From Flavobacterium luteolum (lineage in GTDB: Bacteria > Bacteroidota > Bacteroidia > Flavobacteriales > Flavobacteriaceae): DNA of 64,000 nucleotides. The DNA lies in assembly GCF_027111275.1 (NCBI RefSeq), contig NZ_CP114286.1, forward strand, positions 1,550,001 through 1,614,000. The letters run 5' to 3'. Positions 2,902-58,895 of the stretch are shown one piece after another. Position numbers and translations under genes: made by a program. Below the pieces are notes generated by a model. The model worked only from the letters and a program-made list of their open reading frames with translations. It ran no database searches and was not told the DNA's origin. The stretch's first letter is position 1; each line of letters opens with the position of its first letter.

Positions 2902-3345
2902 ATGAAAAATTTGAAAAACAATCGTTTTCTAACTGTCTTGCTATGTCTTTTTATTTCTTCTAAATCTTTATCACAAAGCAATCAGCCATTAATGCCTAGC
3001 CAGCAGCATAAAATTATAATCGATAAAATTGTTGAAGCTACTCATTACAAAAACTACGTAATTGATTTCTGTCTCTCAAAAATAAATGAAGCTTCGGCAA
3101 AAGAAGGCTGGAATGACCAAAAGGCAATGGAAGTTACCCAAAGCATTAACTACAAAAACTTTAGAGATGCGATCTACAACAGTTTTGTAGTGTTTGACGA
3201 AGTTGAATTGGAAACTTTATTAAAAGCCTACGAAAAAGATCCTGCCTATCAAACACAAAATGTCATGACCAACAATAGGGTTCTGATTAATAATCTGAAC
3301 ATTTTTGCGAATGATATTGTTCTTGGGAAATATATTTCTAAGTAA
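2902..3345 (+). CDS. Small secreted protein of unknown function
   Basis: A 147-residue product with an N-terminal signal peptide (NRFLTVLLCLFISSKSLS, then QSNQ). The remainder is mostly predicted helical and soluble, with no motif I recognise and only one cysteine beyond the signal peptide. It faces the penicillin acylase gene convergently. It is a stand-alone gene between a terminator at 2778 and a hairpin at 3379. I assign no function. Confidence 0.7.
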   Translation: MKNLKNNRFLTVLLCLFISSKSLSQSNQPLMPSQQHKIIIDKIVEATHYKNYVIDFCLSKINEASAKEGWNDQKAMEVTQSINYKNFRDAIYNSFVVFDEVELETLLKAYEKDPAYQTQNVMTNNRVLINNLNIFANDIVLGKYISK

Positions 3346-3375
3346 GGTTCTGAGGTTCTGAGGTTCTGAGGTTCT
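3346..3375. repeat. Tandem octamer GGTTCTGA (3.75 copies)
   Basis: Units start at 3346, 3354, 3362 and 3370 (the last is partial) immediately after the stop codon at 3345. Related degenerate strings occur at 29792, 32653, 58559 and 58856, always intergenic. Confidence 0.85.
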
Positions 3376-3378
3376 TAA

Positions 3379-3409
3379 CCTTTGTCAAAGTTTTAAACTT
3401 TGACAAAGG
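3379..3409. terminator. Perfect 15-bp hairpin between convergent genes
   Basis: CCTTTGTCAAAGTTT (3379-3393) and its exact complement (3395-3409) are separated by one base. The spot between two convergent genes suggests a bidirectional terminator or mRNA 3' end structure, although it lacks a clean T tract. The core TCAAAGT...ACTTTGA recurs in the hairpin at 62896. Confidence 0.55.
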
Positions 3410-3451
3410 CTGTAACTTCAAACCTCAAACATGAAACCTCAAACAAAAAAT

Positions 3452-11682: not shown

Positions 11683-12026
11683 GTTTCAGGTTTAAGGTTT
11701 CAAGTTGAATTGCTTTGTGTTTTTTAACCGCAAAGAGCGCAAAGGATTTTTTATCAAGGCTATTGGTTACAAACGCTAAGTTCGCAAAGCTTTGCGTTCT
11801 TTTGCATTTGGCAAGCATAGACTCAGTAAAAAGCCCTTGTGCTCTTTGTTATTTAACCGCAAAGTTCGCAAGGCTTTTTTATCAAGGCTAACGTTTATAA
11901 ACGCTAAGTTCGCAAAGCTTTGCGTTCTTTTGTTTATGGTAAACATATACTGAGCAAAAAAACTTTGCGCTCTTTGCGTTTAAAATTTCTCAACGAATGT
12001 CAAACTTGAAACCTGAAACTTGAAAC
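11683..12026. repeat. Repeat cluster: imperfect outer inverted repeat around two tandem ~128-bp copies
   Basis: The outer arms GTTTCAGGTTTAAGGTTTCA.. (11683-11706) and AACTTGAAACCTGAAACTTG.. (12003-12026) are imperfect reverse complements. Between them, two direct copies (11726-11854 and 11855-11981) both begin AACCGCAAAG and contain ACGCTAAGTTCGCAAAGC and TTTGCGTTCTTTTG. A further diverged AACCGCGAAGTTCGCGAGG copy lies at about 41313. There is no ORF; this fills the 450-nt gap between kynU and queA. Confidence 0.85.
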
Positions 12027-23133: not shown

Positions 23134-23586
23134 TTACTCCCTGTTTTTGCTGTCTATTACAATCGTAACAGGACCGTCATTTAGAAGATTAACTTTCATA
23201 TCGGCACCAAAAATTCCAGTTTGAACTTTCTTACCAAACTCTTTTTCAATTGCTTGAACAAAGTTTTCATACATTGGAATTGCAAAATCTGGTTTTGCCG
23301 CTTTTATATAAGATGGACGATTTCCTTTTTTAGTGGATGCGTGAAGCGTAAATTGACTTACAACGATTATATCTCCGTCAACATCTTGCACCGAGCAGTT
23401 CATAACGTCATTTTCGTCTCCAAAAATTCTCATTTTAATGATTTTACCAGCAAGCCAATCAATATCTTCCTGAGTATCGGCTTCTTCTATTCCGACTAAA
23501 ATTAATAAACCTTTTTGTATATCGGCAACAATTTTAGAATCGACTGTTACTGACGCTTGGGAAACCCTTTGAATTACTACTTTCAT
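23134..23586 (-). CDS. dtd: D-aminoacyl-tRNA deacylase
   Basis: The 150-residue protein hydrolyses D-aminoacyl-tRNAs (and Gly-tRNA-Ala), a translation proofreading step in the cytoplasm. It matches DTD end to end: MKVVIQRVSQASV start, VGIEEADTQEDIDWLAGKI, SQFTLHASTKKGNRPSY active-site loop and the Gly-Pro motif in LLNDGPVTIVID. Its start codon lies only 4 nt from the left arm of the inverted repeat around the S23 ORF, so the repeat forms its translation initiation region. Confidence 0.97.
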   Translation of the reverse strand: MKVVIQRVSQASVTVDSKIVADIQKGLLILVGIEEADTQEDIDWLAGKIIKMRIFGDENDVMNCSVQDVDGDIIVVSQFTLHASTKKGNRPSYIKAAKPDFAIPMYENFVQAIEKEFGKKVQTGIFGADMKVNLLNDGPVTIVIDSKNRE

Positions 23587-23590
23587 AGAA

Positions 23591-24015
23591 AATTGTGAAT
23601 TGTAAATGGTAAATTGTGAATTATGTAGTACTTAGCTTTTGCTTAGATGTTATAATAATTGAAGCTAAAATTTTATTTATTTCTATAATGTCAGACTTTA
23701 TAGATTGAAATTGAATCTCATTTAAGTAATTGGATTGAAAAAGCAATTCCAGCCAATAATCTGTTTCGTTTGCCTCTTTTTGTGCAATTGCAAGTTTATG
23801 AATAAAGTCCTTTTTACTTTCCGCCTGCTCAGATTCTCTAATTAATGCGCCTATAGCTGTTCCACTTCGAAGTAATTGTTTACTCAGAACATATTCCTTT
23901 TTATCATCTTTTAAAAATTGGAAAAGTTTAATAATTCTAAGTGCAAAATTAAAAGACTTTGTTTTAATTATGTTATCAGCCATAATTCACAATTTACCAT
24001 TTACAATTCACAATT
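23591..24015. mobile_element. 35-bp perfect inverted repeat exactly bounding a four-helix-bundle ORF
   Basis: Arms at 23591-23625 (AATTGTGAATTGTAAATGGT...) and 23981-24015 are exact 35-bp reverse complements. The right arm supplies the S23 ORF start codon (23981-23983) and touches the rsgA stop codon (24014-24016). The left arm contains the ORF stop codon (23621-23623) and ends 4 nt from dtd. The whole intergenic space is therefore the element. No transposase is present, so any mobility would be non-autonomous. Confidence 0.8.
23621..23983 (-). CDS. Four-helix bundle protein (S23/IVS-encoded family)
   Basis: The 120-residue protein matches the family first known from intervening sequences of 23S rRNA genes and related to the Avd accessory protein of diversity-generating retroelements. 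Characteristic stretches are LLRSGTAIGALIRESEQAES and KDFIHKLAIAQKEANETDYW followed by LELLFQSNYL. It forms small basic helical bundles thought to bind nucleic acid, but its cellular role is unsettled. Here it is framed by a perfect inverted repeat between rsgA and dtd rather than in rRNA. Confidence 0.92.
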   Translation of the reverse strand: MADNIIKTKSFNFALRIIKLFQFLKDDKKEYVLSKQLLRSGTAIGALIRESEQAESKKDFIHKLAIAQKEANETDYWLELLFQSNYLNEIQFQSIKSDIIEINKILASIIITSKQKLSTT

Positions 24016-24991
24016 ATTTACGGGTTTCATCACTCGCTGCACGATCTTCACCGTAAGTATCGGTACGATAATGTTCGTCGTCACCTTCAAGGATTTTAAG
24101 ATAACTATTATAGCGTGACCAAGCAATTTCATCTTTTTCTAAAGCTGCTTTTATGGCACAATGTGGTTCTTCTTTATGCAAACAATTGTTAAACTTGCAT
24201 TGATCTTTTAATTTGAAAAATTCTGGAAAATAACCGCTGATTTCTGACGGTTCCATATCTACAATTCCAAAACCTTTAATTCCTGGAGTATCAATAATTC
24301 GGGCATCAAAAGACAAATCGTACATTTCGGCAAAAGTTGTAGTATGCTGACCTTGTTTGCTTTGTTCTGAAATTACCGAGGTTTTCAAATGAAGACTAGG
24401 TTCCATTGCATTTACCAAAGTTGATTTTCCAACACCTGAATGCCCAGAAAACATACTCACTTTTCCAATCATCATTTCTTTTAGCTTATCAACACCTTTA
24501 TTTTCTGTTGATGAAATTCGGAGACACTTATATCCAATTTCAGTGTAAATATGTTGTAAATAAAGCTGATCGTCTAATGTTTGATCATTTAAAGTATCGA
24601 TTTTATTAAAAATAAGAATCGCTTCAATTCCGTACGCTTCGGCTGTAACCAAAAAACGGTCGATAAAGCTTGTAGTTGTTGGCGGATTATCAATGGTAAC
24701 CAATAAAAAAACCTGATCGATATTGGAAGCAATAATATGAATCTGCTTAGATAAATTAACCGATTTACGAACGATATAGTTTTTTCGTTCATGAATATTA
24801 TGAATCGTTCCAGTAACGGCATCCGAAGTTTCATCTAATTCATAATCAACAATATCGCCTACAGCAATAGGATTGGTACTTTTGATACCTTTTATTCTGA
24901 ATTTCCCTTTCATACGGCATTCCACAAAATCTCCTTGTTCAGATTTTACGGTATACCAGCTTCCTGTAGATTTGTATACGGTTCCTGTCAT
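24014..24991 (-). CDS. rsgA: Ribosome small subunit-dependent GTPase A
   Basis: The 325-residue circularly permuted GTPase assists late 30S maturation. An N-terminal OB fold (residues about 1-70) is followed by G4 NKID, G1 GHSGVGKST, G3 DTPGIKGFG and a C-terminal zinc knuckle (CKFNNCLHKEEPHC). The order G4-G1-G3 is diagnostic. It is followed directly by the S23 cassette and dtd on the same strand. Confidence 0.97.
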   Translation of the reverse strand: MTGTVYKSTGSWYTVKSEQGDFVECRMKGKFRIKGIKSTNPIAVGDIVDYELDETSDAVTGTIHNIHERKNYIVRKSVNLSKQIHIIASNIDQVFLLVTIDNPPTTTSFIDRFLVTAEAYGIEAILIFNKIDTLNDQTLDDQLYLQHIYTEIGYKCLRISSTENKGVDKLKEMMIGKVSMFSGHSGVGKSTLVNAMEPSLHLKTSVISEQSKQGQHTTTFAEMYDLSFDARIIDTPGIKGFGIVDMEPSEISGYFPEFFKLKDQCKFNNCLHKEEPHCAIKAALEKDEIAWSRYNSYLKILEGDDEHYRTDTYGEDRAASDETRK

Positions 24992-25065
24992 TCTTTTATT
25001 TTAGATTTCTGATTTTAGATTTTAGATTAAAACCTAAATCTTTTGCAAAGATAAATGAATAATTT

Positions 25066-48022: not shown

Positions 48023-48094
48023 TGGCAAAAAAAATAAATACTAGGTTTCTGTTTGAGTCTGAAATCTAAAATCTAAAAATCTATTAATTAAAAA

Positions 48095-58762: not shown

Positions 58763-58855
58763 CTTTGTCTTTTCGCAATTGGATTTCTATAAATATTCTT
58801 TTAACTCTAAATGACTGTATTTTTGAGATAACCTCTTTTTTATTCAATCCAATAA

Positions 58856-58895
58856 ACCTTAGAGCCTTAGTTCCTCAGCACCTTAGAACCTTAAA
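58856..58895. repeat. CTTAG/CCTCAG repeat string (right copy, inverted)
   Basis: CCTTAGAGCCTTAGTTCCTC continues as AGCACCTTAGAACC; inverted relative to 58559. Confidence 0.7.

Follow-up and report, generated by a model that had tools for sequence, protein, structure and literature searches.

What kind of element is a small S23-family gene that lies, framed by a perfect inverted repeat, between rsgA and dtd in Flavobacterium luteolum? We followed this question from a 64,000-nucleotide stretch of the genome (the window; contig NZ_CP114286.1, positions 1,550,001 to 1,614,000), where an initial annotation had taken the locus for a mobile unit whose ends are read as genes. The observation was confirmed, and the interpretation given to it found support in part. 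Our preferred reading, to which we assign a probability of about 0.48, is that of an element resembling the intervening sequences (IVS) of rRNA, in which an S23 gene is flanked by inverted arrays of about five heptads each and the S23 pentamer would recognize its own heptads. It builds on what we observed of the anatomy of the unit, of its generality, of the repeat unit common to both arms, of the way in which this repeat unit follows the S23 lineage, and of the selection on the protein. Beyond the locus itself, S23 genes are often paired with inverted heptad arrays written in lineage-specific codes, and we regard this as the deeper finding.

The inverted repeat is as exact as annotated: all 35/35 bases of the two arms are complementary (Table 1), and upon extending the arms to 40 nt (23586-23625 and 23981-24020), 38/40 positions (95%) remain complementary. 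The right arm contains the S23 ATG (23981-23983) and overlaps the rsgA stop, while the left arm contains the S23 stop (23621-23623) and ends four bases short of the dtd start. The unit is compact, as had been described, and its only open reading frame (ORF) has PF05635 as its sole Pfam match at 0.001, with no Y1/HUH transposase domain. The notion that its ends are read as genes holds for the start and stop of S23 but not for rsgA, whose stop lies at the same place in L025, a close relative without the unit. Further copies of the arm, which would have fitted a mobile unit, were nearly absent, as the 32-nt core occurs exactly only at the two arms in the 5.36-Mb genome and allowing up to three mismatches added just 4 other places (reversed control, 0). 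Both arms are period-7 arrays (4.7 and 4.6 copies by Tandem Repeats Finder, TRF), with about five degenerate 7-mers of the form GWNARTK running head to tail and no unique spacers between them, unlike a CRISPR array. A perfect arm match is rare among orthologues (2/20 rows, 19 of them distinct, at 32/32 core positions and the rest at 25-31). The exact repeat was therefore rejected as a conserved transposon end, and is a by-product of heptad arrays rather than a conserved terminal repeat.

Table 1. Features of the unit between rsgA and dtd, its neighbours, and ORF-less arrays in the window (positions are those of the window).
Feature	Position	Strand	Basis
Whole unit of 425 bp: S23 ORF with both arms, flanked by rsgA and dtd	23591..24015	-	
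5' arm of the S23 gene: heptad array; contains S23 ATG, overlaps rsgA stop	23981..24015	-	inverted repeat + period 7
3' arm of the S23 gene: heptad array; contains S23 stop; reverse complement of the 5' arm at every position	23591..23625	-	inverted repeat + period 7
S23-family ORF, 120 aa, PF05635/TIGR02436; nearest solved chain 2rld (5 chains)	23621..23983	-	
rsgA (ribosome small subunit-dependent GTPase A), upstream neighbour; ends at 24014	24014..24991	-	Pfam/TIGRFAM profile matches
dtd (D-aminoacyl-tRNA deacylase), downstream neighbour; starts at 23586	23134..23586	-	Pfam/TIGRFAM profile matches
ORF-less array pair, octads AGGTTCTG then heptads, around a stem-loop; octad resembles L008 arms (own genome, 0.79)	3345..3444		
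ORF-less heptad array AAACTTG/AAACCTG; no close own S23 code (best 0.60)	12002..12026		
ORF-less heptad array ATTTTAG; nearest own code L005 (0.72)	24998..25028		
ORF-less array; nearest own code L005 (0.69)	48058..48094		
ORF-less octad array AACCTTAG; nearest own code L008 (0.78)	58855..58893		

Arrays accompany S23 genes well beyond this locus. The genome holds 8 S23 ORFs, none with internal stops, and all 8/8 loci have a period-7 or period-8 array in at least one flank (5/8 in both), each with its own unit: AATTGTG at the rsgA-dtd locus and, elsewhere, AATTATT, AATTATG/AGTTATG, GATTTTT, AAAGTCG, AAGAAGC, an octad related to AATTAGAT, and the octad AGGTTCTA. A similarity scan of genome contigs, starting from the subfamily of the rsgA-dtd S23 and using the best 80 of 272 related stretches, gave 79 loci with enough flank (L091, with a short flank, was dropped). 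With thresholds at the 95th percentile of neighbouring control ORFs, arrays occurred in both flanks at 48/79 of these loci compared to 2/148 control ORFs, and inverted arms at 67/79 compared to 4/148. Either an array or inverted arms stood beside the ORF at 75/79 loci, versus 2-6% of shuffled flanks across the sets. From the scan loci, which by title range from Flavobacterium to Deltaproteobacteria, Chlorobiaceae, and Anaerolineales, 127 arms fold to the common heptad G-W-N-A-R-T-K. These statistics against control ORFs and shuffled flanks contradict the view that S23 is simply a conserved operon gene beside which an inverted repeat arose by chance, a view that we consider close to negligible even though S23 is retained at rsgA-dtd in part of the genus.

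As the scan was confined to one S23 subfamily, we also took a PF05635 sample of the phylum, in which 45/61 genomes had a match, with up to 16 copies per genome. From the 109 best-scoring loci among the matches listed, chosen blind to arm and subfamily, 107 were usable (two with short flanks were dropped); weaker S23 proteins are under-represented in this sample, and sister species add orthologous copies to it. An array or inverted arms were present at 88/107 loci, an array in at least one flank at 71/107, and inverted arms at 65/107, while shuffled flanks gave 3.3%, 1.8%, and 1.5%, respectively, and 0.0% for arrays in both flanks. In six genomes reached via other-phylum loci, the feature occurred at 10/12 scored loci and at 5/6 of the new ones (6/12 were already in the scan, and 3/15 matches, under the Pfam cut-off and missed by our own profile, had been dropped). 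Combining the sets at that stage, 173 array-bearing loci fell into 83 contexts. The number of units per arm peaked at 4.5-5, with 148/274 arms having 4 to 5.5 as counted by a detector that truncates ends, and 30/274 arms were greatly expanded to 8 units or more. Many arrays lie close to the gene: 58/125 of the detected upstream arrays reach to within 12 nt of the S23 start, and 84/117 of the downstream ones begin before the stop or within 12 nt after it. At L107, L111, and L120-L122, an array of opposite sense lies just before the S23 ORF or is read as its start, so that a third array, coding for an N-terminal extension, is conceivable at some loci.

The two arms of a locus share their unit, with a similarity of 0.77 compared to 0.55 for arms of different loci. 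Across loci, unit similarity decreased with protein identity, from 0.65 (at least 60% identity) to 0.62 (50-60%), 0.51 (40-50%), and 0.48 (below 33%), in pairs of the same period with no detected shared flanking genes, although these pairs are not independent of each other. GC matching left the trend unchanged, and outside the large cluster that holds the rsgA-dtd gene the effect was smaller (0.55 for 114 pairs vs 0.46 for 1159 pairs). The heptad word changes along with the S23 protein, and the repeat unit tracks the S23 lineage even where the sites are unrelated.

As annotated, the protein clearly belongs to the S23 family over the full domain, scoring 99.3 bits against PF05635 (cut-off 33.8; 1.8e-28) and 104.6 bits against TIGR02436 (cut-off 24; 3.1e-30). 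Its matches in the Protein Data Bank (PDB) are 2rld (6e-40) and 2gsc (0.011), both with five chains, the latter (XCC0516) published as five four-helix bundles according to the reference lists of PMC3936711 and PMC10053308. S23 structures, cited in the same two papers, have been solved since 2006, while S23 proteins were still called proteins of no known function in PMC4990558. Four residues, Q36, R39, E50, and E73, are the commonest at their positions in 95-100% of 197 S23 proteins and possibly mark an active or binding site, or are structural. Among 18 intact rsgA-dtd orthologues, the median dN/dS was 0.059 (83 usable of 153 pairs; an approximate value, with dS near 1 and with L028, L065, and L069 left out), which points to strong purifying selection on the protein.

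The design of the unit recalls that of the 23S rRNA IVS of Leptospira, Coxiella, and others, which have an S23-family ORF, a length of about 430 nt, and complementary ends; the rsgA-dtd unit likewise joins an S23 protein to complementary ends. In the Coxiella IVS of 428 nt, tandem GACAGAT heptamers stand directly before the S23 ORF, which is decaying, and an RNase III site lies at the first heptameric repeat (PMC4990558). GACAGAT is one letter from GWNARTK. Unlike these IVS, the rsgA-dtd unit lies between protein genes and not in a 23S rRNA helix, and has an intact, strongly selected ORF with inverted heptad arrays on both sides; several codes occur per genome, and ORF-less arrays are found elsewhere. 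Both the shared design with its RNase III site and the co-directionality of S23 with its two neighbours, seen in 30/44 loci where both were found, would suit an element acting at the RNA level, whose arms pair in the rsgA-S23-dtd transcript so that RNase III excises the unit and the stem is what is kept. We hold this to be rather improbable, as own arm pairs match barely better than arms taken from other species (28.68 vs 28.13 of 32 positions, with 104/5000 permutations as high; 19 of the 20 orthologue rows with both arms were used, against a common heptad reference and uncorrected for kinship). L028 was left out of this comparison; it and L067 are one locus reached by two routes, with identical arms. 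The result favours a unit-reading protein over an obligatory stem. Furthermore, only one flank bears an array at many loci, the purifying selection on the protein is unlike the decay of the Coxiella ORF, and no Rfam match at the gathering score was found in the rsgA-dtd locus (L001) or in any of the 20 S23 loci searched. With as many as 104/5000 permutations reaching the observed value, concerted evolution of the arms was also set aside as a proof of copying or pairing.

We compared S23 loci at different sites for what they share. When the rsgA-dtd site (L053-L067) was set against another Flavobacterium site (L070 and L071, after a gene reading as mazG), DNA similarity extended 25-52 nt 5' of the ORF, or about one arm, in 30/30 pairs. 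At the other end it stopped from 17 nt upstream to 31 nt downstream of the stop codon, often leaving the 3' arm uncovered. Outside Flavobacterium, 51 pairs with at least 75% protein identity showed similarity reaching at least 20 nt into the 5' flank in 25 and into the 3' flank in 21, and past 100 nt on either side in 0. At 68-75% identity, 120 sampled pairs gave 35 and 29, respectively, with 13 for both flanks and 1 past 100 nt, and an earlier sample had 2/149 pairs with similarity past 100 nt. The clearest pair, L107 and L111 (by title Allopseudospirillum and Methylomonas), had 91% scaled identity over 475 aligned bases. The piece shared between sites thus appears to be at most the ORF with its arms, and the arms likely travel with the ORF; this is not proved, because a shared word alone would also lengthen the alignment. 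The 79 array-bearing scan loci form 29 context clusters. For the proposed mobility, support comes from comparison only and is less firm than for the pairing of S23 genes with arrays.

At the rsgA-dtd site, we found dtd in 31/31 genomes of the genus and read 30 loci, in 28 of which rsgA and dtd are side by side; the two genes enclose S23 in 6, have it nearby in 1 (L043), and lack it in 21. Junctions without S23, which the initial annotation had suggested looking for, are thus present, but not all are clean: six of these 21 leave no space between the genes, while others hold a remnant or other repeats. The L031 junction retains 19 bases resembling the end of an arm, L025 and L026 have AAATTCC-like heptads in the gap, and the gap of L038 contains a tandem of a longer unit. 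Among the scan loci, 18/80 are at rsgA-dtd; 19 contain both genes, but the S23 of L068 follows mazG. At this junction, the unit now seems to be mostly inherited vertically.

Arrays of the same kind also occur apart from S23 genes. The window and 20 further stretches, spaced evenly along the genome, together cover 464 kb, and in these the 7- or 8-mer arrays numbered 43 in intergenic and 2 in coding sequence, compared to 4 in resampled sequence. Four of the 43 belong to S23 loci, and the list of the remaining 39, all ORF-less, includes eight ORF-free inverted pairs separated by less than 200 bp. While 20/39 reach 0.69 to an own S23 code, 19/39 stay below, and arrays of AAACTTG, of the octad CGCAAAGT, and of AAATTCC have no close S23 code in this genome. 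The 39 arrays fitted the own S23 codes at 0.677 vs 0.612 for random sets of equal size, with 13/500 as high in a pool unmatched for GC; code sets of 11 other genomes, which are smaller, gave 0.36-0.63. Upon holding down the GC of the pool, in which 9 members come from the same genus, 116/2000 (below 40% GC) and 246/2000 draws (below 38%) were as high, and, because of this weakening, we regard the match of ORF-less arrays to own S23 codes as suggestive only. In the syntenic stretch of five relatives, gaps differ, and arrays are often replaced by arrays of other codes.

Such arrays could also arise by themselves through slippage and form hairpins, with S23 genes and other small cassettes merely landing there. 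The excess of ORF-less arrays (39 in 464 kb vs 8 S23 genes genome-wide), their frequent lack of an own code at 0.69 or better, the great expansion of some S23-adjacent arrays, and the other repeats in the rsgA-dtd gap of relatives would all fit. We nevertheless consider slippage unlikely as the explanation, as the unit tracks S23 lineage between unrelated sites, even after GC matching, and as both arms of a locus have a common unit. Distinctly unlikely, in our view, is that S23 is a regulator with its own operators, binding arrays at its own start and near other genes to control them, and spreading solely by ordinary gene transfer rather than as a mobile element. The closeness of arrays to the S23 start and stop, the strong selection on the protein, and the intergenic position of the arrays speak for it, but it leaves unexplained both the dispersed ORF-less inverted pairs and the occurrence of S23 loci of one subfamily in 29 different contexts.

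Some published heptads can be linked to S23 as well. Xanthomonas has GGGAATC heptads, with 70 and 75 convergent pairs in two genomes, and Nostoc has GGGGA(C/T)T heptads, both described as quadruplex-forming repeats (PMC4692102); the term S23 is absent from the accessible text of that paper. An exact 21-mer of GGGAATC heptads was found in 1/369 genomes of the class of G091, namely in G463. In the family of G463, 20/59 genomes have S23, an array or inverted arms lie beside 18/22 S23 loci, and 7/22 (L287, L288, L290, L291, L295, L298, and L300, by eye) have GGGAWTC arms. At least 10 GGGAWTC dimers were present in 6/7 genomes with GGGAWTC-armed S23 vs 8/52 others (Fisher 0.0004), a test with classes set by eye after seeing the data, kinship uncorrected, dimer counts inflated by long tandems, and L283 and L286 (CGGGACTC arms, in genomes with 0 dimers) counted as another code, without which it reads 6/9. 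Mere presence of S23 gave a weak difference (8/20 with S23, 6/39 without; Fisher 0.039), such that the code-matched comparison alone appears clear.

Further known systems share some of these traits. REPIN/RAYT systems likewise have dispersed short inverted pairs, intergenic hairpins, and a gene flanked by the same kind of repeat (PMC3116915), whereas S23 is a four-helix bundle with no known catalytic domain (PF05635 alone in Pfam), its repeats are arrays of 7- or 8-mers, and the match of dispersed arrays to own codes is the suggestive one given above. The Xanthomonas GGGAATC repeats are similar in being heptad arrays with convergent pairs, and the GGGAATC unit flanks S23 genes in the family of G463. 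The TAACTGA heptads of Beggiatoaceae are intergenic, and their author considers a repeat-binding protein as the mobile part; they differ in being almost all direct, with 169 direct sets compared to a single indirect one in the draft genome (PMC4679880). Read as GATAACT, they are one letter from GWNARTK. Avd of diversity-generating retroelements has been described as resembling PF05635 (PMC10053308), but the whole genome here has 0 matches to the reverse transcriptase domain RVT_1, the partner expected of an Avd-type protein. Proteins labelled 23S rRNA IVP have been listed near CRISPR arrays or cas loci (PMC10910872, PMC3936711), and heptad arrays misidentified as CRISPR could contribute to such listings. 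The literature that we found, mostly without subscription journals and in part, contained no link of S23 genes to inverted heptad arrays in general.

In our preferred reading of an IVS-like element, the S23 pentamer would recognize its own heptads, perhaps with one unit per subunit, and arms would therefore have about five units. The one-to-one match is an attractive guess, but only a guess; ring proteins that read repeated triplets in RNA offer a comparison. Recognition would allow the unit, along with ORF-less array pairs that share its code, to persist and occasionally to be copied into new intergenic places, a role that can be likened to that of RAYT proteins serving REPINs. For strand cutting and joining, host replication or repair acting on the arm hairpin is the simplest guess. 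DNA, single-stranded or as a hairpin, would be favoured as the S23 target, because inverted arms show the same word at both ends only in DNA, while RNA arms would pair. A broader version is possible, which we hold more tentatively: dispersed heptad and octad array elements could form a large class that crosses phyla and depends on S23 proteins for recognition. Each lineage would read its own 7- or 8-letter word with one unit per pentamer subunit, and would in this way maintain and spread ORF-bearing units and ORF-less hairpin pairs alike. A single system would then embrace the rRNA IVS, the GGGAATC repeats of Xanthomonas, and perhaps further orphan heptads. Reports of heptad repeats in several bacteria named no protein, and the link to S23 provides a candidate; conversely, it gives the S23 protein a concrete candidate ligand, written beside each gene. 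Both are open to a simple binding assay.

A number of observations weigh against the IVS-like reading. Recognition of heptads by the protein and movement of the unit are both inferred. The rsgA-dtd copy is old and selected rather than freshly arrived, which does not fit simple mobility, and its ORF is broken in 3/24 orthologue rows (23 distinct; L076, L123, and L033). We identified no target-site duplication in the rsgA-dtd gaps (0-216 bp) of relatives without S23, and neither target duplication nor clean empty site for the ORF-less arrays among the elements listed in the syntenic stretch of the five relatives. Between sites, similarity covered both arms in only 12/51 of the closer pairs and often stopped inside the ORF, and its entry into the arms may reflect a shared word. 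One kind of flank, resembling type I restriction genes (a reading only), is shared by 18/79 S23 loci of distant bacteria (L073, L078, L079, L082, L084, L092, L093, L096, L103, L105, L111, L112, L114, L120-L122, L125, and L126), and some of the spread is therefore probably hitch-hiking; S23 may ride in defence operons. In the phylum sample, only 32/107 loci had arrays in both flanks, and 19/107 had neither feature. Arrays without S23 prevail in the genome, and the 6/39 S23-less genomes of the G463 family that still have at least 10 GGGAWTC dimers indicate that arrays can outlive, or do without, the gene. The slight advantage of own arm pairs, the GC-held draws, and the by-eye GGGAWTC classes count on the same side.

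Among the ORF-less arrays, further inverted pairs were noted at L135 (6933-7139), L136, L139, and L148, and the stem-loop within the pair at 3345..3444 looks like a terminator. The window also contains, at 11711-11976, about two copies (83% matches) of a 128-bp unit with CGCAAAG words.
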